From contig NZ_JAESVA010000019.1 in assembly GCF_020621385.1 (NCBI RefSeq), forward strand, positions 1 to 42,578: a stretch of DNA of 42,578 nt, written 5' to 3'. Of this stretch, positions 1,418-35,813 are shown one piece after another. The translations under genes and the position numbers were made by a program. Position 1 is the first letter of the stretch. The number at the start of each line of letters is the position of its first letter. Below the pieces are notes generated by a model, which had not been told where the DNA came from, searched no databases, and worked only from the letters and a program-made list of their open reading frames with translations. The stretch is from Acidisoma cellulosilyticum. GTDB lineage: Bacteria > Pseudomonadota > Alphaproteobacteria > Acetobacterales > Acetobacteraceae.

Positions 1418-2239
1418 CTATTCGCCCGTGTCGCGCTTGGTGTCGCTGAGCGCCTTGGGCTTTCGTGTTGTGCGGGCGATAGCGGCTCTGCGTCTGTAGC
1501 TTTCAACGTTCATTTCGAAAATTGTTGAGTGGTGAACAAGGCGATCGACAGCAGCCAGCGTCATAGCGGCATCGGGAAAGACGCTCGTCCATTCTCCGAA
1601 GGGGTGATTGGCGGTGACCATGAGGCTGCGCCGCTCGTAGCGGGCTGCGATAAGCTCGAACAAGACCGAGGTCTCCGCTTGATCTTTGCGGACGTAGCAG
1701 AGGTCGTCGAGGATCAGCAGGTGGTATTTGTCGAGCTTCTCGATGGCACTTTCGAGCGTTAGGGTTTGGCGGGCCTGTTGCAGTCGCTGCACGAGATCGG
1801 TGGTTCGTGTGAAGAGGACGCGGTATCCATTCTCGACCAGAGTGTGGCCGAAGGCGGCGGCAAGGTGGGTTTTTCCTGAGCCACTTGGCCCGAAAAGGAG
1901 GATTGTTCCGCCGGTGCTGATCCAGCCGTCACCGCTGGCCAGAGCGGTGACGTGCGCGCGGCTGAGCATCGGGAGGGCCGCGAAGTCGATGCTGTCCAAA
2001 GTTTTGTCCGGCGGCAGCCGGGCCTCGGTCAAATGTCGCTGGATGCGTCGCTGAGACCGTTCGGCGAGTTCGAGTTCGGCCAAAGTCGCCAGGAGCCGTG
2101 CCGCGGGCCAACCCTCGCGATCGGCGCGATTAGTGAAGTCGGGCCACAGGGCGGCGATCGTCGGCAGCCGCAACTCGTTCAGCAGAAGGGGCAGCCGGGC
2201 GGTATCGACCTTGATCGTGTCGCTGATGTTGTCGTTCAT
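1418..2239 (-). CDS. istB: IstB helper ATPase of IS21 element
   Basis: This 273-residue AAA+ ATPase assists the IstA transposase, selecting target DNA and remodelling the transposition complex. A Walker A motif GPSGSGKTHL lies near residues 116-125, a Walker B motif LLILDDL follows about 60 residues later, and the usual C-terminal helix containing ANHPFGEW and STIFEMNVESYRRR is present. Length is slightly above the common 240-260 residues. The ATG overlaps the istA stop as ATGA, so translation is probably coupled. No frameshift or stop is present. The identification rests on the whole domain layout. Confidence 0.95.
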   Translation of the reverse strand: MNDNISDTIKVDTARLPLLLNELRLPTIAALWPDFTNRADREGWPAARLLATLAELELAERSQRRIQRHLTEARLPPDKTLDSIDFAALPMLSRAHVTALASGDGWISTGGTILLFGPSGSGKTHLAAAFGHTLVENGYRVLFTRTTDLVQRLQQARQTLTLESAIEKLDKYHLLILDDLCYVRKDQAETSVLFELIAARYERRSLMVTANHPFGEWTSVFPDAAMTLAAVDRLVHHSTIFEMNVESYRRRAAIARTTRKPKALSDTKRDTGE

Positions 2240-3735
2240 GCCGCAACCCCCAGGGAAGGGAGCAACGCGTCGTAGCCGGCGACCGGAGGCAGGTTGACCA
2301 CGATGTCGGGCATCAGCGCGGGTATCGGTGCGAAGCGCGCCCGCAATGCCGACACATCGATGGTGAAGGCGGTAGCCGAGGCGCCGTCCGGTGCCTCGCG
2401 CATCTGTTCCGTGAGCGCGGCGGCGAGTTCGGCCTCGCAGCCGCGCTCATGCGCGAGGGCAAGAAGGGCCACCATGGTTCGGCAGGCAATCCGCGTGTCG
2501 CCCACGGCGATCAGCCGCTCCCACGCCAATCGGTAGGCCGGGCGCGGGAACAGCGCGTCGCGATAGACCAGGTTGAGCAACGCCATCGGCTTGCGGCGGA
2601 GGCTGTGGATGACGTGGCGGTAATCGACGACGTGACCACGCCGCCCGTTACCATGGCTGCGGCCACGGCGCAGCGTCAGCACCGGACTGCTGCCGCCATG
2701 GAAGCATTCCAGCCGATCATCGTACAGCCGAACCCGCAGCCGGAAGCTGATCAACCGCGATGGCACAGAGTAAAAGACTTTGCGCAGAACGAAGCCGCTA
2801 CTGGATGTCACGAAAACCGTCGCCTCGTCATAATCCGAGATGCGGTGGGGTGGCAGCTCGCTCAGCGCCGCGCATTCCAGCCGCACCATCTTGGCACGGC
2901 GGGCGTTGCGGCGGCCAATGAGGTCAGCGATCCAGGCGCGATACGCGTCCAGGCTCTCGAAGTTGCGGCTGCTCCGCAGTAGCAGCGCCTGCGCGATGCT
3001 CCGCTTGAGGTGGCCGTGCTGGCTCTCGATGGCGCCGTTCTCATGCGCCACCCCCGTGGTGTTGCGGGTCGGCGTCATACCGTAATGGGCGCAGAAGGCC
3101 TCGTAGCGGCAAGTCTGATCGCGGCGGGCATCATGATCGAGATTACGGAAGGCGGCCGACAGACTGTCGGACCGGTGCTCCGCTGGAACGCCGCCCAGAG
3201 CCCATAAGGCGTTCTGAAGACCGACGGCCAAGGCCGTGAAGCTCTCGCCTCCGAGCACGGGCTCGGCATGCTCCCACGCAGAATAGGCCAGAACGAAATG
3301 ATAGAGCCGGTGATCCAAGGGCTGACCGGCGATGCTGACCGCGACATCGCCCATGTCGGTGAAGTCCGAAAGACCCTGCTGACCGGGGATGTGGTCTTGC
3401 CGGAAGATCACTGCGCGCTCGGCGCCATGCTCTGCCGACCAGGCCCGCACCCGCCGCTCCAGGCTCCGGCGCAGGCGATCCCAATCGTGATCGGGATGAC
3501 GGCGCTGCATCTCTTCAAGCAAGGTGACGGCCCGCAGACCTGGTTCGGCCTCAAGCATGGGGCGGATCTCACTGTCCCACAGCCCCTGGAACGGATCGGC
3601 GGTCTTGCGCACCCGACGTCCGCCCGGTGGGGGTGACGGTCGTCGATGCTCGGTCTCGATGCGGCGTCCGGTTCGTTCGCTAAAGCCACCCTTCGCCGCG
3701 GCGACCGACTGGGAATGGTGATGACGAGATTCCAT
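2236..3735 (-). CDS. istA: IstA transposase of IS21 element
   Basis: This is a DDE-type IS21 transposase of about 499 residues. I chose the ATG at 3735 because a GAGG ribosome-binding site stands 7 bases upstream; an upstream ATG at 3777 would add 14 residues without such a site. Catalytic candidates are the aspartate in DFTDMGD, the aspartate in EHRSDSLSAAF and the glutamate in HENGAIESQHGHLKR, in the right order and spacing for the DDE core. The C-terminal region (SVPSRLISFRLRVRLYDDRL) is the Mu-like domain that follows the core. It is intact and overlaps istB by four bases. Confidence 0.95.
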   Translation of the reverse strand: MESRHHHSQSVAAAKGGFSERTGRRIETEHRRPSPPPGGRRVRKTADPFQGLWDSEIRPMLEAEPGLRAVTLLEEMQRRHPDHDWDRLRRSLERRVRAWSAEHGAERAVIFRQDHIPGQQGLSDFTDMGDVAVSIAGQPLDHRLYHFVLAYSAWEHAEPVLGGESFTALAVGLQNALWALGGVPAEHRSDSLSAAFRNLDHDARRDQTCRYEAFCAHYGMTPTRNTTGVAHENGAIESQHGHLKRSIAQALLLRSSRNFESLDAYRAWIADLIGRRNARRAKMVRLECAALSELPPHRISDYDEATVFVTSSSGFVLRKVFYSVPSRLISFRLRVRLYDDRLECFHGGSSPVLTLRRGRSHGNGRRGHVVDYRHVIHSLRRKPMALLNLVYRDALFPRPAYRLAWERLIAVGDTRIACRTMVALLALAHERGCEAELAAALTEQMREAPDGASATAFTIDVSALRARFAPIPALMPDIVVNLPPVAGYDALLPSLGVAA

Positions 3736-10789: not shown

Positions 10790-11722
10790 TTAGCTGCCTA
10801 CAGCAGCTTGCTTCGGCGAGACTGGCGGCCGCGAAGGATGCAGAATGAGCCCTTTACCGTCATCAGCCAGCTCAATTTTGGCTTCGGGATATACGGCCAT
10901 GGCCAGCTTTAGGTTCGGGATGAACCGCAATTTGAAGTTGTTCATGGCGTTAACCCCGGCACCGAACTGGATCTTCAAGGCAGCCCAAGACACTGGGGTC
11001 GACTTATTCAGGGAATGCAAGCGGTAGGCTAGCCAGCAATAGATGTCGATCGCCTGGCTGTTGTTCGAAATCGCTGAAATTGCGGCCTCGGCAATCGGCA
11101 CCGGATGCTTCTTCAGACCCTCATAAAAAGCCTCAGACAGCCGCGCTTTCTGGGAAAACAAGCTTCCTTGGGCTTCTTCTCCGGTCGGTTCCAGGAAGAT
11201 GGCGGCATCCATAATTGATTGATTCGCAAGGCCAATTCGAGACCCTTGCCGGATTTCAAACGTCAGTCGGCATCTAGAAATCCTGTCAGTCTGGTCCCTA
11301 ACGGCTGCCAGGTTTTTACCGCCCTGAGGAATCCCCATTCTGGCGATCCAGTCTCGAAGGGAGCCCCCGAGCGAGACTTCCCGCGAGCCGGTGCGGAGCG
11401 CTTCGGACTGCAGGTAAATCAAGATGAGGCGGGCTCGTGAACCATATGGAACACCGACGTGGATAGGAGTGCCTTCTGGGCCGCGCCGCATTCCGGGCTC
11501 AACAATGAGGCAGTATCGGTCGCTCTCGACCTGCCAACCCTCACTGTCGTCTAGGCGGCGATGGGGCAGGGCGGCTTGGCACCACCCCGAATACAGGAAC
11601 CCAATGCTTGCATCTTCGTCGCTGAGATACGCTGACGCTGCATCGACAACCTCACGAGCAAAATCAAGCTGCAGCGCCTGCTGCTTCCCACGCTCAGTTA
11701 AGATTTCATGCACTATTCCCAT
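10790..11722 (-). CDS. repA: Plasmid replication initiator RepA
   Basis: The 310-residue protein matches the RepA family of plasmid initiators (RepA_C type). Visible family segments are YGSRARLILIYLQSEALRTG, SLRDWIARMGIPQGGKNLAA and the winged-helix part AIDIYCWLAYRLHSLNKSTP with SWAALKIQFGAG. RepA binds iterons at the origin and melts the DNA. Iteron-like repeats flank the gene on both sides, which supports this role. It converges on parAB. The start ATG at 11722 has a weak ribosome-binding site, consistent with low expression. The gene is complete. The tail PKQAAVGS is short and unstructured. Confidence 0.87.
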   Translation of the reverse strand: MGIVHEILTERGKQQALQLDFAREVVDAASAYLSDEDASIGFLYSGWCQAALPHRRLDDSEGWQVESDRYCLIVEPGMRRGPEGTPIHVGVPYGSRARLILIYLQSEALRTGSREVSLGGSLRDWIARMGIPQGGKNLAAVRDQTDRISRCRLTFEIRQGSRIGLANQSIMDAAIFLEPTGEEAQGSLFSQKARLSEAFYEGLKKHPVPIAEAAISAISNNSQAIDIYCWLAYRLHSLNKSTPVSWAALKIQFGAGVNAMNNFKLRFIPNLKLAMAVYPEAKIELADDGKGLILHPSRPPVSPKQAAVGS

Positions 11723-12012: not shown

Positions 12013-12417
12013 ATGGTCGGTTCTATGACTGGTTCGTATCCTCGGACTGAGGTTTTGCCTGGACCGGAACGCCGACGGCGTTGGTCTGTGGCGGAGAAGC
12101 TGGCAATGGTGGATAAGACCCGTGAGCCAGGGGCCACGGTGAGCCTTGTAGCGCGTCGGCGCGGCGTGTCACCAAACCAGCTCTTCACTTGGCTACGCCT
12201 GGCCGAACAAGGGGCCCTGGCGGCGATCCGGGCCGAGGAAGAGGTCGTCCCGGCATCTGCCTTCCGAGCACAGCAGGATCAGATCCGCGAACTCCAGCGC
12301 CTTCTGGGTAAGAAGACATTGGAAACCGAGATCCTGAAAGAGGCGCTCGAGGTCGCGACGGACTCAAAAAAACGGCCGTTGCGGCTGCTATCGCTGCCAC
12401 GGGACAGTTCCCGGTGA
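12013..12417 (+). CDS. IS2-group OrfA (transposase HTH subunit)
   Basis: This 134-residue OrfA has the helix-turn-helix RRRWSVAEKLAMVDKTREPG with VSLVARRRGVSPNQLFTWLR and a leucine-zipper segment DQIRELQRLLGKKTLETEIL. It binds the element ends and partners OrfB. An in-frame ATG at 12025 is an alternative start. The frame is intact up to TGA 12415-12417 and overlaps the orfB GTG, but since orfB is broken the element cannot move by itself. The protein could still bind related ends. Confidence 0.85.
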   Translation: MVGSMTGSYPRTEVLPGPERRRRWSVAEKLAMVDKTREPGATVSLVARRRGVSPNQLFTWLRLAEQGALAAIRAEEEVVPASAFRAQQDQIRELQRLLGKKTLETEILKEALEVATDSKKRPLRLLSLPRDSSR

Positions 12418-13760: not shown

Positions 13761-14126
13761 TTAGCTTTCAGACGAATCGAGCTGCTGCAATTCACTTTCG
13801 ACTGCACGGAGCAAGGCAGGAATTTCGTCACGAATAATTGGCAGCAGCATTCGAGTGTCGATTACGAAATACTGATGCGCCATCATATCCCGAAGTCCAG
13901 CAAACCCTTTCCAATCTACCTCAGGATACCGGGTTCGGGTTTCTTCCGGCATTGCCTTTGCCGCTTCGCCTAGCTCCGTCAGAGCGTTTTTTATCGCTCG
14001 GAAGCCCATCCTATCGGCATGGGGAAGCGCATGGAAGGCAGCCGTCCCCATATCAGCAATGAAATCTCGAAGATCGGTAGCAGCTTGGCGGATGTCGTGC
14101 AGGCGCTCTTCCAGTGATCGTGCCAT
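13761..14126 (-). CDS. hepT: HepT-like HEPN ribonuclease toxin
   Basis: This 121-residue all-helical HEPN protein carries the RNase motif R79-x4-H84-x-Y86 (RDMMAHQY), the signature of HepT toxins. Such toxins cut RNA and slow growth, and the partner nucleotidyltransferase inactivates them by adding AMP to the tyrosine of this motif. The motif is intact here. The start codon overlaps the antitoxin stop by one base (TGATG), so the antitoxin comes first and the two are coupled. The protein looks complete. It probably stabilises the plasmid, with defence against phage an alternative role known for this family. Confidence 0.9.
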   Translation of the reverse strand: MARSLEERLHDIRQAATDLRDFIADMGTAAFHALPHADRMGFRAIKNALTELGEAAKAMPEETRTRYPEVDWKGFAGLRDMMAHQYFVIDTRMLLPIIRDEIPALLRAVESELQQLDSSES

Positions 14127-14560
14127 CAGAAGACACTAACCATGTCACGCACGGCAGTTTCGGCAGCCTTCGCCATCAGCGTCGAGCGCTCGCCAAGATC
14201 AACGGTATGCCCGATGACTGCCTGGATCTCATCCTTGATTCGCTGGATCTCAAAAAGCGAGTGTTCCCTGTCTGGGGTAAACTGAAATAACAGATCCACA
14301 TCGCTCCCCGGACCGGCTTCTCCCCGCGCAACCGACCCAAAAACCCAAAGAGCCGCGACACCGCGCTCGCGCAGCCTGGGCTCAAGTTCACGAAGGGTGC
14401 GCACCACTTCCGCCAGCTGAGGCGGCTTGCGGTCGGCCTCCTCCAGGAAGCGCTCAAGCAGAGTGCCGATGAGGTCTTGCAGGTTCTCGCCACGCGCAGC
14501 GGCCACCGCTTTCACGCGGTTTCGGACATCGTCGGGCACTCTGATGGAAAGAAACGCCAT
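14126..14560 (-). CDS. mntA: MntA-like antitoxin with N-terminal ribbon-helix-helix domain
   Basis: In this 144-residue protein, residues 1-45 (MAFLSIRVPDDVRNRVKAVA, then LIGTLLERFLEEA) look like a ribbon-helix-helix DNA-binding domain. Residues 65-130 are a minimal nucleotidyltransferase with the exact motif GSX10DXD (G75, S76, D87, D89). MntA enzymes AMPylate the paired HepT toxin. Most MntA proteins begin directly with the enzyme domain, so the DNA-binding part is unusual. It suggests the antitoxin also represses its own operon. A perfect palindrome stands 12-33 bases upstream of its ATG, and AAGGA and TATATA lie in between. Confidence 0.9.
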   Translation of the reverse strand: MAFLSIRVPDDVRNRVKAVAAARGENLQDLIGTLLERFLEEADRKPPQLAEVVRTLRELEPRLRERGVAALWVFGSVARGEAGPGSDVDLLFQFTPDREHSLFEIQRIKDEIQAVIGHTVDLGERSTLMAKAAETAVRDMVSVF

Positions 14561-19878: not shown

Positions 19879-19975
19879 GATTGTTTCCTCCGCATGTCTT
19901 ATGCTGCGACGATAGCTGCAGGCTGAAGCCGCGTCACTCTTTGCGGTTGAGCAAACGACAGAGCTCATCGAATTG

Positions 19976-20020
19976 TGAGTGCGCGCTTATACGTCACTGC
20001 GTGACGTGCGCGGCTTGGGC
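19976..20020. other. Candidate origin of transfer (oriT), Ti/MOBQ type
   Basis: Between the divergent traC and traA lies GCGCGCTTATACGTCACTGC followed by GTGACGTGCGCGGCTTG. ACGTCAC (19991-19997) and GTGACGT (20001-20007) form an inverted repeat around TGC. The order GCGC-TTATACGTC-CTG-inverted repeat resembles the oriT core of Ti plasmids as I remember it. The exact nick is not assignable from sequence alone. Position in the traC/traA divergence is the family norm. Confidence 0.65.
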
Positions 20021-20036
20021 CGTTATTGTTTGGGGT

Positions 20037-23000
20037 ATGGCGATCTATCATCTCCATGCCAAGGTAATCAGCCGAGCGACCGGCCGTAGCGCGGTGGCGG
20101 CTGCCGCCTATCGCTCGGCCTCAGAGCTGGCCGACGAGCGGCTGGAGCGGTCGCATGACTTCACCAATAAATCCGGTGTCGTGCATTCGGAAATCCTGCT
20201 GCCGCACGGCGCCCCGGCGCGGCTGCTGGATCGTGCCACGCTGTGGAATGAGGTGGAGCGCATCGAGAAGCGGAAGGACGCCCAGCTGGCGCGCGAGCTG
20301 GAGTTTTCCATCCCTCGGGAGATGGCGAAGGATGAAGGCATCCGGCTGGCGCGGGACTTCGTGCAGGAGCAGTTCGTCGATCGGGGGATGGCGGCCGATC
20401 TCAATGTGCATTGGGATATCGGTGCCGACGGCCAGGCGAAGCCGCATGCGCATGTGATGTTGGCGACGCGGGCGGTGGGACCCGACGGGTTCGGCCAGAA
20501 GGCGCGCGACTGGAACCGGACCGCGCTTCTGGAGACGTGGCGGGAGCGATGGGCGTCGCTGACCAATGAGCGGCTGCTCGCGCTTGATCTCGATCTCCGG
20601 ATCGATCACCGGACCTATGCGGCGCAGGGCATCATGCTTGAACCGCAGAACAAGATTGGCCCGGCCGGTGCACGCCGCGAGGACCGTGCGGAGGCAGCCG
20701 AACGGGCGGATGAGCATGAGGCCATCGCGCGGCGGAACGGCGATCGGATCATCGCCGAGCCGGAGCGTGTGCTGGTGGCGCTGACCCACCAGCAAAGCAC
20801 CTTCACCCGCCAAGACCTGGCGCGGTTCGTCGATCGCCATACGGCCGATGCTGATCAGTTCACAACCGCGATGGCCGTGGTGGAGGCATCCCCGGAGCTA
20901 GTGCGCGTTGGGTTGGACGGGCGAGGGCGTGCGCGCTTCTCGACGCGCGAGATGCTGGGCGTAGAGCAGCGACTGGAAGCGACGTCCTACGCGTTGGCAG
21001 AGCGTGCTGGCCATCAGGTGGGTGGCAGCATCCGGGGTCGAGCGCTTGCACGGGCCGAGCGCGTTCTGGGCGATGAGCAGCGGGCAGCCTTCGAGCATGT
21101 GACGGTGGGGGCGGATATCGCCGTGGTCGTGGGTTACGCCGGCACGGGGAAGAGCACGATGCTCGGGGTAGCGCGCGCGGCCTGGGAGGGTGCGGGCTAC
21201 CGGGTCCGCGGGGCGGCGCTCTCCGGCATTGCCGCCGAAGGTCTGGAGACCGGCTCCGGGATTGAAAGCCGGACGCTGGCGAGCCTGGAGCATGGGTGGG
21301 CGCGGGGGCGGGACGCGCTTACCGATCGCGATGTTCTGCTGGTGGACGAGGCGGGCATGGTCGGGTCGCGGCAGATGGAGCGTGTGCTCTCGGCTGCCAA
21401 GGCTGCCGGCGCCAAGGTCGTACTGATCGGTGACGCCGAGCAGCTCCAGGCGATCGAGGCTGGCGCCGCCTTCCGGATGGTCGCGGAGCGCGTGGGCTCG
21501 GCTGAGATTACGACGGTGGTCCGACAGCGCGAGGATTGGCAGAAGCAGGCGACGCGGGAGCTGGCGACAGGTCGGACGGCAGCCGCACTCAGCCGCTACG
21601 AGGCGGCCGGCACAGTGCGTAAGCATGCAACCCAGGAAGCGGCACAAAGCGGGCTGGTGGCGGCGTGGAACGCCGTGCGTCAGCAGAGTCCGCAGGTCAC
21701 CCAGATCATGCTGGCGCATCGGCGGGTGGATGTGCGCGCCTTGAACGAGGAAGCGCGGGCGCTGCGCCGGGAGGCCGGCGAGTTGGGCGCGGATCACCGG
21801 CTGATGACGGAGCGGGGGGCGCGCGACTTCGCGGAAGGGGACCGGATCTACTTCCTGAAGAACGAGCGATCTCTTGGGGTGAAGAACGGCACGCTTGGGA
21901 CGGTGGAACAGATCAAGGGTGACGGCGACGGCGCGTCTTTGGTGGTGCGGATCGATGGGACGAGCAGCGCGAACGGACAGGGAACGGGCCGTGCTCTATC
22001 TTTTAATATGGAGGATTATGCGGAGATCGATCACGGTTATGCGGCGACGCTGCACAAGTCGCAGGGCATCACCGTGGATCGGGCGCATGTGCTGGCGACG
22101 ACGGGGCTAGACCGGCACATGGCCTATGTCGGGCTGTCGCGCCACCGGGAGAGCGTGACGCTGCACTGGAGCCCCGACGAGATGGGCAGCCGCGCGGGGC
22201 TGGATACCCGGCTCGGTCGTGAGCGGCTGAAGGACACCAGTCTCGATTACGCGCCGGCAGGGCGAACGTTCGAGGAACGCGAGAGTCAGTGGAAGTCGCA
22301 CGACTCTGATCCCGCAGCCATCGCCCATGGCTATGCCGAGCGACGCGGGTTGGTGTCGGCGGCCGATATCGCCGCCAGAGAGCATGCGGAGCGGCAGTCC
22401 GAGGCGCAGTTCGCTGAGGCTGAAGCCGTTCATCAGGTTGGGCCAGCGCCGGTACCGCGACGAAGCAAATTTGCTGGGCTGAAGTTGAATGCGGAGCCCC
22501 TTACCCGGGCGCCCCTAAGCCAAGCGCCGCATGGCCGTGAGCAGTCGTCTGCCGCACGGGTTGCCAGCCGGGAACCGGTTGAGTCCGCCCTGTCGCGGGC
22601 CGTCGGGCGGTTCGCGGAAGCCGTCGAGGATGCGCGGGTGATGGTGCGAGAGCAGCTGCCCGTGCTGCCGCATCAGCAGGCGGCCATGGACGCGGGGATC
22701 GATGCCATCCTGACGGCCGGACACCTCCTGAGCCGGGCCGATGTCGTGGGCACTTTTAACACGCGAACGGAGCTGATCACGCCGGCCGCTGAGAACTGCT
22801 CCGGGCGGGCCGCGGCGATCGCCGCCATTGAGGAGACGCGAGATGAGCGGGCGGCATTGGAAAAGCAGGCGCATGATGTGGTGCGGCACTGGGCGGCGGT
22901 CGAAAAGCGCTACGACCAAGCGGGTGCTGCCTATGAATGGGATGCGCAGCGCCAGGTTGGAAGCGAGCTTGTCGCGTTTGCAAAGGACCTGAAGCGCCAT

Positions 23001-23168
23001 TCGCAAATGGAACGGCTACTGCAGGAGCGCGGACCCGAGTTTGGCATTGCCGAGGGGTCGCGCCTGGACCGTGTGGTGCAGGCGAAGGACCTGGATCGGG
23101 TTTTGGCCCGGGAGATCGGCATCGACCATGGGCCAAGGCATGGCCGTGGAATGAGCCTGGGGATGTAG
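20037..23168 (+). CDS. traA: TraA relaxase-helicase (MOBQ/Ti type)
   Basis: This is a 1,043-residue relaxase that nicks oriT and unwinds the transferred strand. The start at ATG 20037 gives MAIYHLHAKVISRATGRSAV, the canonical TraA/MobL beginning; a longer frame from 19881 would run through oriT and is rejected. The relaxase domain (about 1-240) carries the metal-binding HAHVMLATR segment. The helicase domain has Walker A GYAGTGKST at 366-374, Walker B LLVDEAGMVGSRQ and the late motif LHKSQGITVDRAHVLATTGL. The C-terminal 250 residues are alanine/glutamate-rich. It is complete. The next gene follows after 3 bases. Confidence 0.95.
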   Translation: MAIYHLHAKVISRATGRSAVAAAAYRSASELADERLERSHDFTNKSGVVHSEILLPHGAPARLLDRATLWNEVERIEKRKDAQLARELEFSIPREMAKDEGIRLARDFVQEQFVDRGMAADLNVHWDIGADGQAKPHAHVMLATRAVGPDGFGQKARDWNRTALLETWRERWASLTNERLLALDLDLRIDHRTYAAQGIMLEPQNKIGPAGARREDRAEAAERADEHEAIARRNGDRIIAEPERVLVALTHQQSTFTRQDLARFVDRHTADADQFTTAMAVVEASPELVRVGLDGRGRARFSTREMLGVEQRLEATSYALAERAGHQVGGSIRGRALARAERVLGDEQRAAFEHVTVGADIAVVVGYAGTGKSTMLGVARAAWEGAGYRVRGAALSGIAAEGLETGSGIESRTLASLEHGWARGRDALTDRDVLLVDEAGMVGSRQMERVLSAAKAAGAKVVLIGDAEQLQAIEAGAAFRMVAERVGSAEITTVVRQREDWQKQATRELATGRTAAALSRYEAAGTVRKHATQEAAQSGLVAAWNAVRQQSPQVTQIMLAHRRVDVRALNEEARALRREAGELGADHRLMTERGARDFAEGDRIYFLKNERSLGVKNGTLGTVEQIKGDGDGASLVVRIDGTSSANGQGTGRALSFNMEDYAEIDHGYAATLHKSQGITVDRAHVLATTGLDRHMAYVGLSRHRESVTLHWSPDEMGSRAGLDTRLGRERLKDTSLDYAPAGRTFEERESQWKSHDSDPAAIAHGYAERRGLVSAADIAAREHAERQSEAQFAEAEAVHQVGPAPVPRRSKFAGLKLNAEPLTRAPLSQAPHGREQSSAARVASREPVESALSRAVGRFAEAVEDARVMVREQLPVLPHQQAAMDAGIDAILTAGHLLSRADVVGTFNTRTELITPAAENCSGRAAAIAAIEETRDERAALEKQAHDVVRHWAAVEKRYDQAGAAYEWDAQRQVGSELVAFAKDLKRHSQMERLLQERGPEFGIAEGSRLDRVVQAKDLDRVLAREIGIDHGPRHGRGMSLGM

Positions 23169-30456: not shown

Positions 30457-31380
30457 ATGAGCGACATTATGACGGTTAACGGCGGGACTATCCCGTCGAA
30501 TTTCAGTGCTGGTGCCGGGCAGACCGCCTTCGCCAGTTTCTTCAATTCTTCCACTGTCGTTTCTGACGTCTTTGGTAGCGGCGCCTATAGCTTTAGCAGC
30601 ACTGGCATTTTTCCGTCGGAAGTGGCTGTAACCGCCCCGGCTATCACGGTCACCCTGTCCGGCGCCAATGCCATCGCCATTTCCGGTCAGAACGACACGG
30701 TTACGGCTGGGGATGCGACCCCGTTCCAAGCCTTCCTGAACGGCAGCAGTGGCATTGTTCTGAACACCGGCGCTGCGCCTTCGACGATTTTTGCCTCTTC
30801 GGGGTCTGCCACGGTCAATGCCGGCACCGGCTCGACCACGATCAATGGCAGCACGGGTAGCCTGACCTTCTCGGGGGGGTCTTCCAGCAATGACTCCATC
30901 ACGGCGGGTTCCGGCGTCACGTCCCTGTTCGGTGGCAGCGGCGGTAACAGCACCTTGGTCGGCGGTTCTGGCGTTACGAACATGCTGCTGACCGGTTCGT
31001 CCTCGGGCGACGTGCTCGTGGGTGGCACGGGCGTGAGCATCATCGATGCCTCGGGCACCACCGGCCCGCTGACCATCTCCACCTACCCGTTTGGTGGCGG
31101 CCAGATGGAGGCCACCATGGGCTCCGGCGCCGATACCTTTGTTGGCGGCAGCGGCTCTCATGCCGTGGTTCAGGCTGGCAGCGGCGCTGATGTCTTCGCT
31201 TTCGTCAGCAATGGCACGCCGGGCGCCGATACCATCATCGGCTTCAACGCGAAGGACAATGTTGCCTTCGGGTCGGGCCTGACGGTCACGGGCGAAGCGG
31301 TCGGTTCGCTTGGCGATGTCATTACCCTGAGCGATGGCACGACCATCACTCTGGCTGGCATCGACCACAAGCTTTTCTAG
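30457..31380 (+). CDS. RTX-like/adhesin-like Gly-Ser-rich secreted protein
   Basis: I chose ATG 30457 (MSDIMTVNGG) because GGAG lies 6 bases upstream; the nearby TTG 30451 and ATG 30454 fit less well. The 307-residue protein is rich in glycine, serine and threonine. It contains repeats like GGSGGNSTLVGGSGVTNMLL and GSGADTFVGGSGSHAVVQAG, which recall RTX calcium-binding nonapeptides, and the C-terminal part DVFAFVSNGTPGADTIIGFN typical of RTX ends. No Sec signal is present, so type I secretion through an unlinked transporter is likely. Its function (adhesin, biofilm or surface layer) is inferred. A hairpin follows the stop. Confidence 0.72.
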   Translation: MSDIMTVNGGTIPSNFSAGAGQTAFASFFNSSTVVSDVFGSGAYSFSSTGIFPSEVAVTAPAITVTLSGANAIAISGQNDTVTAGDATPFQAFLNGSSGIVLNTGAAPSTIFASSGSATVNAGTGSTTINGSTGSLTFSGGSSSNDSITAGSGVTSLFGGSGGNSTLVGGSGVTNMLLTGSSSGDVLVGGTGVSIIDASGTTGPLTISTYPFGGGQMEATMGSGADTFVGGSGSHAVVQAGSGADVFAFVSNGTPGADTIIGFNAKDNVAFGSGLTVTGEAVGSLGDVITLSDGTTITLAGIDHKLF

Positions 31381-32358: not shown

Positions 32359-32833
32359 ACGGTCTCTTAGTTAGTTGCTGACCTTGATCATAGCGACACG
32401 AGCAACGAACATCGCCGCTAGTATGATGTCCATAGAACCAAACAAACTTCGCAAAAATAACTACTTGGTGTAATGCTTTTATACTTAAAGAACTAGTCCA
32501 ATAAGACAAAATTCGTTCTCACGAAGAAAAATCTCAAATATCTGACCGTTAGATGAGTAAAAACACCCACTAGATTTAGTTATTGAGGATTAATCGATTA
32601 AAAACATAAAGTATTAGAAAGAAAAATTTGCATCTATACTCAAAAAAGCTTAGAGATAGCAAAAGTTTGGGTGTAGCATCGGTTAATGGGTTGGCCAAAA
32701 ACACAGGTTTTTAGTCATATTTTGAGCGATGATGTGGACGTCATCCGTTTGTTGGAAGTTGTTATTATGTAACAACAAGCGGAATATTTACTTGCGTGAA
32801 TTTCAAATTATCACCGGATAGTCAGGGACGCTC
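32359..32833. other. AT-rich upstream region of the Hint gene
   Basis: After a few bases of IS5 relic the region is AT-rich and has no gene. It probably holds the promoter of the Hint-domain gene. A string TTAATGGGTTGGCC (32682-32695) is reminiscent of the TTGGCC motif near the OrfA-MarR gene, but one copy is weak evidence. Confidence 0.45.
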
Positions 32834-34141
32834 ATGCCAGCAACAACCAATAACTACAATTCTTCCAATAACGGCCAAAACATAACGCAGGTCGTATCGG
32901 CGATTACCTTTAATTCACCACTTACAAATAATCTTACCACAACCGCAGGGCAGGTTGCTCCGACCGTTACATTTGTCGACACAATAGCGTTAGGCAGCAT
33001 AACGTTCAATGTTACCAACAACGCGACCGCTATTGTACAAGAAGGCCTTAGTGTCGGCGGTGCATTTGTATTTAACGCTAACGGAGGGGTTATCGAGGCA
33101 TCGACAACCGCGGCCGTCGCCAGCTCGCAAGCCATAACTATCCAAAACGGCGGCACGTTCGAAGCCGACAACACTTTTTTAGGTCTGCTCGGCAACTCCA
33201 GCTATACCTTCGGTGCTGCTACAGCTGGAAAAGTTGATACGCTCGTCATCGGCTCTCCGACGTTATCAGTTCAACTTTTGAATTTTACTGCGCCCATCGT
33301 TGGTTTTGCTAGCAGTAGTGAAGTTATTGATAACGAAACAATTAACGGAGCTTCAGTACACTCGTACACCATTACGCAAGCTGGAAATGGTGTTCAAACG
33401 GTGACTTACTATAATGTAAATGGCACATCTCTCGGCTCTGAGAAATTCGCATCAGGCACTTTCACAGCCGCGTCCTTGGGCAATCACACTGTTGGACTTC
33501 CCGGCGGGCCTTTAAACCTCACGGTTGAGGCAAATGGATCTCTTTCGACCACGTTCTGTTTCTTCTCGGGAACTGGAATTCGCACTCCTGCCGGGGATCT
33601 GCCTGTAGAAGAATTGAAGATTGGCGATGTGATCGTGACTGCTCACGGTGAGGTAAAGCCGGTACGATGGATCGGTGTGAACACCGTATCGACAAGGTTT
33701 GCTGATCCGCTGCGTGTTGCCCCGATTCGTATCAAGGCTGGTGCTCTCGGAAACGATCTTCCTTACAAAGATCTTTTGGTTTCTCCGGACCATGCCATGT
33801 TTATGGATGGTTGCTTGGTTCAAGCAGGAGCCATGGTAAACGGTCTTTCGATTGTTCGCGAAACGGATATGCCATCAACCTTCAAATATTATCATATTGA
33901 GGTTGAGAATCATTGTCTGGTGCTTGCAGAAGGTGCTCCCACTGAGACTTTTGTAGACAATGTTGATCGCATGGGTTTTGACAACTGGGATGAATACGAG
34001 GCTCTCGGAATTAAGGAGTCTATCCCAGAGATGGACTATCCGCGAGCCCAGTCCGCTCGTCAAATTCCGTCACAAATCCGCATGAAGATTTCTGAAACAG
34101 CCGTTCGTCTCTTTGGAGAAAGAGTGTCTATCGCTGCTTAG
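32834..34141 (+). CDS. Secreted-type protein with C-terminal Hint_2 domain
   Basis: The start ATG 32834 has AGGGA 6 bases upstream. The 435-residue protein has a threonine/asparagine-rich N-terminal part (1-240) with beta-strand-like repeats (SITFNVTNNATAIVQEGLSV, AVASSQAITIQNGGTFEADN). From Cys242 it is a Hint_2 domain: CFFSGTGIRTPAGDLPVEEL, then GDVIVTAHGEVKPVRWIGVN and LLVSPDHAMFMDGCLVQAGA. Hint domains cleave the peptide bond before their first cysteine. The short tail after about residue 385 is not a usual second domain. Such proteins are frequent in Acetobacteraceae. No Sec signal is obvious. It has a lower GC content than its neighbours, which suggests transfer. Confidence 0.9.
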   Translation: MPATTNNYNSSNNGQNITQVVSAITFNSPLTNNLTTTAGQVAPTVTFVDTIALGSITFNVTNNATAIVQEGLSVGGAFVFNANGGVIEASTTAAVASSQAITIQNGGTFEADNTFLGLLGNSSYTFGAATAGKVDTLVIGSPTLSVQLLNFTAPIVGFASSSEVIDNETINGASVHSYTITQAGNGVQTVTYYNVNGTSLGSEKFASGTFTAASLGNHTVGLPGGPLNLTVEANGSLSTTFCFFSGTGIRTPAGDLPVEELKIGDVIVTAHGEVKPVRWIGVNTVSTRFADPLRVAPIRIKAGALGNDLPYKDLLVSPDHAMFMDGCLVQAGAMVNGLSIVRETDMPSTFKYYHIEVENHCLVLAEGAPTETFVDNVDRMGFDNWDEYEALGIKESIPEMDYPRAQSARQIPSQIRMKISETAVRLFGERVSIAA

Positions 34142-34158
34142 TAGATCGAGATAGGATT

Positions 34159-34206
34159 AGAGGAAGCCTGCGCTAAGATCTCAAACGCGCGGCTTCCTCT
34201 TGTCTT
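34159..34206 (+). terminator. Intrinsic terminator of the Hint gene
   Basis: AGAGGAAGCC (34159-34168) and GGCTTCCTCT (34191-34200) form a perfect 10-bp stem 18 bases after the stop. TGTCTTT follows, a modest T-rich tail. It also separates the gene from the convergent OrfA-MarR gene. Confidence 0.72.
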
Positions 34207-34350
34207 TACCCAAAAAATAATCCTCGGATCGGTAGTTAATATGCTCGGTTTGTCCGAGTATATTTTATTAATTTTTCTAACACACACACCTACTTTCCTA
34301 CAGAGCGGCTAATATTCCGGCTTGGTATTCGAGAGTGCCTGTGACGTGCA

Positions 34351-35043
34351 TCATGAGTCATCCGCAAGAAATGATGTAGCTGATCGTGTGGCGATTACCA
34401 CAACACTTCGGCCGTCAAACGGATCACTAAGTCTTTGAACATATCCCGCCTGTTCAAGACGGTCGACAGCGCGAGTGACTGAAGCCCTCGGAATTTCCAA
34501 GTTCGAGGCCATGGCACGAACTGTTTGACCCAACTCAGCTTGCAAGCAAAGTGCTAGCACTGCCAATTGGCGTAAACTGAGATCATGATTGTCGTTTTGT
34601 GATAAAATAATGATTTGTTCTCCTAAGGAAGAACGCCGTTCTGTAGAACCGGAATTTTTTTTATTTTCGGCCAATTGAAATGCTTTCTTAAGGGCCTCTA
34701 CCTCCAGCGTTTTTTTTCCAAGAATTCCATGAAGCTCACGAATTTGCTTCCGCAACGCATGGTGTTCTAAAGCTGGAACTATGGCCTCTCCCAAATTCGT
34801 TTCCGATAGGGTGCCTGCATCAGCTAGGCGCCGCCAGGTGAAAATCTGATTTGGATTAACCCGATATTGCCTGGCGATAAGGCTGACGGAGGCGCCAGGC
34901 GCATAAGTCTCATTGACCATTCGTATCTTCTCATCAAGCGACCACTGCCGGCGGCGCTGCGTGGAGGTGATGGTCTTTTTTTTATGCGCGGTATCATTCA
35001 TAGTCGCGACTGCTGCCCGTCTTTTGTGGACTAGTAAGGTCAT
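34351..35043 (-). CDS. Fusion of an IS3 OrfA-type HTH with a MarR-like winged helix
   Basis: This 230-residue protein has two DNA-binding parts. Residues about 28-125 match an IS2-group OrfA: QRRRQWSLDEKIRMVNETYA, VSLIARQYRVNPNQIFTWRR and the zipper QIRELHGILGKKTLEVEALK. Residues about 150-228 look like a MarR winged helix: LSLRQLAVLALCLQAELGQT, then RASVTRAVDRLEQAGYVQRL and SDPFDGRSVVV. The join is in frame and no orfB follows. ATG 35001 (MNDTAH) is an alternative start. TTTGGTCAG and TTGGCC repeats lie directly upstream. A domesticated transposase subunit acting as a regulator is the most likely reading. Confidence 0.78.
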   Translation of the reverse strand: MTLLVHKRRAAVATMNDTAHKKKTITSTQRRRQWSLDEKIRMVNETYAPGASVSLIARQYRVNPNQIFTWRRLADAGTLSETNLGEAIVPALEHHALRKQIRELHGILGKKTLEVEALKKAFQLAENKKNSGSTERRSSLGEQIIILSQNDNHDLSLRQLAVLALCLQAELGQTVRAMASNLEIPRASVTRAVDRLEQAGYVQRLSDPFDGRSVVVIATRSATSFLADDS

Positions 35044-35044
35044 C

Positions 35045-35104
35045 TTTGGTCAGAGAAAATATCTGAGGTTGGCCAAAATATGACAACTTTTGGTCAGCCT
35101 TGGC
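35045..35104. promoter_or_regulatory. TTTGGTCAG and TTGGCC repeats upstream of the OrfA-MarR gene
   Basis: TTTGGTCAG occurs at 35045-35053 and 35089-35097. TTGGCC occurs at about 35070-35075 and 35100-35105. All lie within 60 bases directly upstream of the gene. They could be its own operator sites. They end just before the IS3 element at 35125. Confidence 0.42.
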
Positions 35105-35124
35105 CAGTAGCGCTTTTCCGGTAG

Positions 35125-35813
35125 TGAACTGCGCCGAGTTTCCCGGAGGCTCCAACTTCCTAGTAGAGTGGAGCCATGACGAGCAAGACGACGAACAAAT
35201 TTAGCCCTGAGCTCCGTACCCGAGCGGTACGGATGGCTTTGGAACATGAGGGGAAACACCCGTCGCGATGGGCGGCCGCGACGTCGATTGCCGGGAAGAT
35301 TGGCTGTTCGACCCACACGCTCATGGACTGGGTGAAGAAGGCGGATATTGAGTCCGCTCGAACCTCGGGGGTTCCTTCCGAGGTGGCGGAACGGATGAAG
35401 GCTCTTGAACGGGAAGTTCGGGAATTGCGACAGGCCAATGAGATCCTGCGCAAGGCGTCGGCTTATCGTGGGTCGCAATACGTGTCTATTCGCTACACTG
35501 AACGCCTAGCAGAGGTCGGGATCGAACCATCAGTCGGAAGCGTTGGTGATTCCTATGACAATGCCCTCGCCGAAACCATCAACGGCCTGTTCAAGGCTGA
35601 GGTGATCCATCGCAGGGGCCATGGCGCCACACAGAGGCTGTAGAATTTGCCACCCTCGAATGGGTGGACTGGTTCAATCATCGCCGCATCCTTGAGCCCA
35701 TCGGCAATATCCCGCCTGCCGAGGCCGAAGCACGCCACTATGCAGCCCTGGACCAGATGCCCTTGGCCGCATAACTTAAATCAAATGGCCTCCGGGAAAC
35801 TCGGCGCGGTTCA
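35125..35813 (+). mobile_element. IS3-family deletion derivative with matching ends
   Basis: The left end TGAACTGCGCCGAGTTTCCC (35125 on) and the inverse of the right end TGAACCGCGCCGAGTTTCCC (ending 35813) match over about 26 bp with one difference. The 689-bp element has lost about 500-600 bp of the usual orfAB region. Intact ends mean it could still be moved by a transposase from a full copy elsewhere. No clear target duplication is visible. Confidence 0.86.
35176..35774 (+). pseudogene. IS3-family OrfA joined to the end of OrfB
   Basis: The frame from ATG 35176 gives the OrfA helix-turn-helix ([40 protein letters not shown]) and the zipper [20 protein letters not shown]. At about residue 97 it jumps in frame to the C-terminal part of Orf[21 protein letters not shown], then [20 protein letters not shown] with the catalytic E. 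A further base is missing near 35623, so the frame ends at 35643 while the expected end (EWVDWFNHRRILEPIGN) lies in another frame to TAA 35772-35774. The catalytic D residues are mostly absent. Confidence 0.85.

Follow-up and report, generated by a model that had tools for sequence, protein, structure and literature searches.

How does the DNA-binding subunit of a transposase come to share one reading frame with a MarR-type winged helix, and what might such a protein do? The question is raised by a gene on a stretch of 42,578 nucleotides from Acidisoma cellulosilyticum (contig NZ_JAESVA010000019.1, positions 1 to 42,578), which we call the window and by which we mean this stretch at its full length. 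A preliminary description had read the gene as an IS2-group OrfA joined to a MarR domain and turned into a regulator. Here we report a computational analysis of this proposal.

The contig that carries the gene is probably plasmid DNA. This is inferred from its gene content, which includes a RepA gene (10790-11722, minus strand), a gene for a MobA/MobL relaxase-helicase (19881-23168, plus strand), a ParA-like gene and many IS genes and remnants. An internally deleted copy of an IS3-family element, unrelated to the OrfA of the fusion and with both ends present, is located at 35125-35813 (plus strand) and begins about 20 bp beyond the motifs upstream of the fusion gene. In this copy the deletion has fused an OrfA-like start with a portion of the integrase core, and the inverted ends are kept. 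At 13761-14560 (minus strand) the window also contains genes for a HepT-like ribonuclease and a nucleotidyltransferase, a pair that resembles a HepT/MNT toxin-antitoxin module.

The fusion gene and its join

The fusion gene occupies 34351-35043 on the minus strand as one uninterrupted open frame of 230 amino acids. The longer span given to it initially, 34351-35104, overshoots the frame, which ends at 35043; the remainder does hold the upstream motifs. Pfam places HTH_Tnp_1 (PF01527) at residues 29-99 (E 8.5e-13, above the curated cut-off) and MarR (PF01047) at residues 155-214 (E 3.3e-12, 46.6 bits against a cut-off of 24.6); PF12802 is found on the MarR half as well, with 44.3 bits against a cut-off of 27. 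In NCBIfam the IS2 repressor TnpA scores best (residues 28-129, E 3.1e-23), with 82.6 bits that stay under the strict cut-off of 229 bits. With both domains above their Pfam cut-offs in one intact frame, the fusion that had been proposed is real.

The OrfA half comprises residues 15-129 (34657-35001, minus strand) as delimited by PF01527, the NCBIfam IS2 TnpA match and an alignment in which residue 15 coincides with a methionine of the IS relatives. It contains an HTH at residues 36-75, followed at about 84-130 by zipper helices that are predicted from the sequence and its secondary-structure prediction only. The MarR half comprises residues 130-230 (34354-34656, minus strand; domain at about 129-228) and is a winged helix with a DPxDGRS wing. 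D207, R212 and S213 of this wing are invariant in a six-row alignment, and the chain stops about 13 residues past it. There is no in-frame ATG, GTG or TTG in the MarR half before residue 160, so that this half relies on the start codon of OrfA, barring the use of a rare one such as ATT. Third-position GC is 0.50 in the OrfA half and 0.36 in the MarR half; the IS from R. mucosa discussed below has 0.85. Structure models of the fusion gave a mean pLDDT of 42 from the single sequence and of 50 with seven OrfA relatives. The OrfA HTH is the only fairly confident part (block-mean pLDDT 70-88); of the two regions that hold the dimer helices in MarR family regulators, the N-terminal one aligns with the starts of MarR proteins, and the C-terminal one is poorly modelled. 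A search of solved structures with the fusion yielded 12 matches (E no higher than 0.01), every one of them on the MarR half.

The two halves meet at a run of eight A (34655-34662, minus strand) that is homologous to the OrfA/OrfB frameshift run of the IS relatives. A run of six or seven A, for example CCCAAAAAAAG and TCAAAAAAACG, is present in the OrfA frame of each of the eight IS relatives that we compared. At the homologous codons the fusion reads AATAAAAAAAATT, eight A and then T, and here the MarR domain starts. The start codons of three short MarR genes, on contigs C20 and C29 of the same genome and on C28 of a second genome (G004), align at this join too. IS2 itself uses A6G for the programmed shift between OrfA and OrfB, according to the part of PMC3299598 available to us. 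Because the join is homologous to the frameshift run and the MarR starts align there, MarR occupies the place of OrfB, and the alignments suggest that the fusion was most likely made at the frameshift site of an IS. Reading of the A8 run in +1 or -1 leads to short tails only.

That the gene has no orfB was borne out: MarR follows OrfA, and the six minus-strand frames of at least 60 amino acids that we tested downstream, to position 31346, are without a Pfam match. The accompanying claim that no element ends surround the gene stands in part. Our search around the fusion covered left ends, and the left-end motif of the IS group was not found in either flank (35002-35250 and 34141-34351). This motif is one loose form picked after the set had been viewed; it is present in 27 of the 33 IS relatives and misses the other six, among them the IS2-like elements L002 and L003 of the same genome, and it has 15 matches in the window. 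The flanking sequence thereby points to a gene that likely lacks element ends. The fusion is not an IS, as it has no orfB and ends were not found.

Relatives of the two halves

The closest OrfA belongs to an IS on the R. mucosa plasmid NZ_CP025062.1, with 60% identity over 125 residues (5-129 of the fusion), followed by relatives in the genomes G279 (59%), G208 (57%) and G386 (55%). The HTH is 75.6% identical to that of the G279 element over 45 residues. An orfB frame comes after orfA in the elements of G279 (L059) and G386 (L061) and is shortened in that of G208 (L060); in the R. mucosa element the orfB frame passes beyond the start of the record. The IS2-like orfA copies of the same genome, on contig C16 and at 12019-12372 of the window, are 46-47% identical to the fusion. 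In a 47-row tree, the OrfA of the fusion falls within a clade of IS OrfA proteins (94/89 for the six-row fork, 95/76 for the fork with R. mucosa and G279). Its branch measures 0.78, and those of its neighbours do not exceed 0.07; the fusion is flagged as a long row in this tree and its placement is unsure. If the tree is right, the short IS branches imply that most of the change falls on the fusion's own branch.

Compared with the orfA of R. mucosa, the OrfA half differs by 0.31, 0.21 and 0.59 at codon positions 1, 2 and 3, and pN/pS is 0.31 (0.36 in the HTH part and 0.22 in the zipper part); synonymous sites are saturated or close to it. In 2000 neutral simulations with matched third-position divergence, the amino acid identity reached 0.35 at most, against the 61.7% observed. 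Only 12 of these simulations kept a frame free of stops, and the mean was 5.0 stops against none observed. The OrfA half thus appears to have diverged from its IS relatives under a selection-like pattern, which we read as signs of retained function. This signal may stem, wholly or partly, from time spent in an unsampled IS lineage.

The MarR half matches the short MarR proteins of the genome and genus, with 109 amino acids on C20, 110 on C29 and 118 on C28 of G004, and also a longer MarR that is widespread in the family. Its identity to all five aligned MarR rows is 38-40%, and pN/pS against C20 and C29 is 0.49-0.51, a weaker codon bias than that of the OrfA half. In the tree of the MarR half, the fusion has a branch of about 4.1 and a place without resolution, and the exact parent is not picked out. 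The short MarR gene on C29 (L005; 1447-1779, minus strand) overlaps with its start the end of a ROS/MUCR gene (1776-2294, minus strand), which is another pairing of such a MarR with a second DNA-binding protein.

The expectation that many proteins of the same architecture would be found elsewhere failed in relatives, in the genomes of family, order, class and phylum, and in contig, plasmid and viral collections. We did not see the fusion architecture in 100 relatives (E up to 1e-3, among the matches listed), in 397 family genomes (E up to 1e-16), or in 395 order, 367 class and 398 phylum genomes (1e-26). These genome sets overlap, and the genome of the window is part of every one; the results shown for the four broader searches have no more than seven scored candidates per genome. 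The non-self matches listed cover one half of the protein, some of them running a few residues past the join, as does the one in G002 (15-139). A match on G012:C1 covers residues 95-227 and reaches the zipper part, only with two internal stops. Scanning a collection of contigs with six short peptides gave five loci, all in the MarR half or at its edge, none of the best 5000 plasmid records covers 80% of the fusion query, and the fusion architecture did not occur in the viral contigs. Two candidates were set aside. The sole plasmid match with an alignment past the join, among the best 5000 records, is on a plasmid of Agrobacterium sp. RAC06 (residues 12-180) and proved to be an OrfA frame closed by a stop codon and adjacent to an orfB-type frame, with no MarR. 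A frame of 290 amino acids on G385:C23 (280 as an ORF from its start) consists, by eye, of OrfA and then non-MarR sequence. In the literature, titles and the first lines of abstracts, a scope outside which most subscription papers fall, gave no OrfA-MarR fusion; PMC12469244, the single paper in which both 'HTH_Tnp_1' and 'MarR' occur, has the latter, in the part available, merely as an author's name. The preliminary description had held that a join unique to this sequence would make it a chance event, and by that measure an architecture of a single genome leans towards a private fusion. OrfA-MarR is not an established family, being known from one genome.

The same genome contains another gene of OrfA-type domains. 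On contig C25 (L056, G000:C25:1-12011), positions 1399-2013 of the minus strand encode a protein of 204 amino acids with three successive HTH_Tnp_1 domains. The gene adjoins those for an 817-amino-acid TPR protein and a hexapeptide-repeat transferase, and its other matches among 200 family genomes, own included, are partial (E ≤ 1e-10). It is possibly a second OrfA-derived regulator of this genome; on a common domesticated ancestor of it and the fusion, the tree gives no resolution.

Upstream motifs and the Hint gene

Upstream of the fusion gene we found TTTGGTCAG at 35045 and 35089 and TTGGCCA at 35069 and 35100. The region 35046-35106 contains four TTGGYCA half-sites, at 35046, 35069, 35090 and 35100, which are spaced by 23, 21 and 10 bp. 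Their cluster score of 5, with both strands read and the palindromic site counted twice, was reached by none of 2000 dinucleotide shuffles and by 2 of 1370 window tiles of 124 bases, both of which cover the cluster itself. The repeats noted earlier are consequently present and exceed chance. Two of the half-sites are part of an imperfect, operator-like palindrome, AGGTTGGCCAAAA-N9-TTTTGGTCAGCCT (35066-35100), whose score was reached by 12 of 500 shuffles. The palindrome overlaps a promoter-like TTGTCA-N17-GATATT (35058-35086, minus strand); promoter-like sites are at chance level, with 4 found and 3.7 expected from shuffles. All motif tests were devised after the motifs had been seen and are suggestive only. 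We also considered the upstream motifs as left ends of an IS, a reading that is unsupported: the loose left-end motif is absent from both flanks, though short cores are common to some IS ends. These are TGACC, present in the ends of L060 and L061, and ACTGGCC (35102-35108, minus strand), present in the IS2 left end as printed in the part of PMC3299598 available to us. Most of the IS ends compared read, by eye, GACCGG or GCCCGG, against GRCCAA in the half-sites of the fusion.

The fusion gene is convergent to a gene for a Hint_2-domain protein of 435 amino acids (32834-34141, plus strand), our proposed target, and a TPR/glycosyltransferase gene is about 0.9 kb away, both in line with the preliminary description. 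The upstream repeats recur once before this Hint gene, where a matching motif, GGTTGGCCAAAA and then GTCATATTTTG, is located at 32689-32724 (plus strand), with its copy of GGTTGGCCAAAA 145 bp before the Hint start. This 12-mer has three copies in the genome of 6,004,381 bases, upstream of the fusion, upstream of Hint and on contig C4. The last (C4:249653) was set aside as a further target, since it is within a coding frame, read by eye as a GMC oxidoreductase. The pattern CCAAAA-N0-16-GTCATATTTTG, which was derived from these same two sites, has two occurrences in the genome, one ahead of the fusion and one ahead of Hint, each pointing at its gene. Taken singly, the best alignment between the two upstream regions does not stand out (38 of 2000 shuffles; 8 or more of the 335 window tiles have a higher score). 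The best two alignments together do stand out, with 1 of 3000 shuffles, none of 333 other window tiles and none of 1065 tiles from other loci. A candidate operator common to the fusion and the Hint gene is therefore plausible as judged by these motifs. Between the two genes lies a terminator-like hairpin (34238-34264, plus strand); three such hairpins were found in the region and 3.9 are expected from shuffles. The Hint_2 protein matches ten places in this genome (E ≤ 1e-40), including its own in the window, and seven in G004; the exact 12-mer is not near the nine other places in this genome.

Origin, possible role and known systems

We tentatively favour, at a little under even confidence, the reading that the fusion is a transcription factor which carries two DNA-binding domains and arose from an IS2-group OrfA and a short MarR gene. 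An IS2-group orfA would have lost its orfB and joined the short MarR gene at or beside its own frameshift site. The zipper helices of OrfA would form the dimer, MarR would add a second DNA contact per subunit, which would fit the repeated half-sites, and the half-sites TGRCCAA/TTGGYCA would be contacted by one or both HTHs. By occupying the -35/spacer region, the fusion would repress its own promoter, and it could modulate the convergent Hint gene. From the upstream sequences, the fusion is a probable autoregulator, and it may also control the Hint gene. For IS2, the available part of PMC3299598 reports that OrfA is a repressor which binds just upstream of its own promoter, and that the OrfA of IS911 is without such a repressor function. 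A more far-reaching version, in which OrfB was swapped for MarR at a programmed frameshift site, the product regulates itself and Hint through its own half-site array, and OrfA is a ready scaffold for two-domain regulators, seems to us possible but less likely than not. Of the exaptation as it was first put forward, the two halves, the lost orfB, the selection-like pattern of the OrfA half and the repeats speak for it, and the recurrence in other genomes that it called for is missing.

The single-genome occurrence is what gives weight to a chance private fusion, in which an IS2-group orfA, already decaying, became continuous with a passenger MarR gene and the frame is open by luck, with no selected role. 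We regard this as a serious possibility, if well below even: no collection searched holds a second example, the contig is crowded with IS and the deleted IS3 copy abuts the fusion, and the MarR half is strongly diverged. Yet the neutral simulations produced a mean of 5.0 stops and at most 35% identity where none and 61.7% are observed, and the cluster of motifs upstream, together with the one before Hint, argues against luck too. The protein might also be a working MarR regulator that owes to the OrfA piece merely its start codon and a tail for dimerisation. The invariant D207, R212 and S213 of the six rows agree with this, a replacement dimer helix would help a chain that ends so soon past the wing, and palindromes suit dimeric MarR proteins. 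An HTH that is 75.6% identical to that of the G279 IS over 45 residues is needless for a mere tail, however, and we consider this explanation improbable. Least probable, and in our view very unlikely, is a factor that controls IS elements, whose OrfA half would recognise the ends of resident IS2-like elements and repress or poison them. IS2-like orfA copies do exist in the same genome (on C16 and at 12019-12372), TGACC and ACTGGCC are common to the ends mentioned above, and IS2 OrfA represses its element according to the available part of PMC3299598. Against it, the loose left-end motif that 27 of 33 relatives carry was not found in either flank of the fusion, and most IS ends, by eye, have GACCGG or GCCCGG in place of the GRCCAA of the half-sites.

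Should the two-domain transcription factor that we favour be correct, it would represent a simple route from IS to regulator, with the OrfA/OrfB junction as the swap point, and a self-dimerising HTH could accept other DNA-binding domains behind it. The TTGGYCA array offers a testable site and the Hint gene a testable target. A chance fusion would instead show where the raw material of regulators originates on IS-crowded plasmids.

With the OrfA proteins (TnpA/InsA) of the IS2 group, the fusion shares HTH_Tnp_1 and the zipper at residues 28-129. Unlike IS2-group elements, it has neither orfB nor recognised ends, MarR replaces OrfB, and third-position GC is low. It resembles the short MarR proteins of C20, C29 and C28 in its winged helix and in the D-L-R and DPxDxRS positions; these are free-standing proteins of 109-118 amino acids, 38-39% identical to the MarR half when aligned, whereas the MarR of the fusion stands behind OrfA. 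Recruitment of a mobile-element protein for gene control has parallels in SfsB, which derives from a Ner-like protein (PMC8987985), and in TldR (PMC13418256), as described in the parts of these papers available to us. In contrast to both, the fusion, known from one genome only, joins a transposase subunit to a second, unrelated DNA-binding domain.
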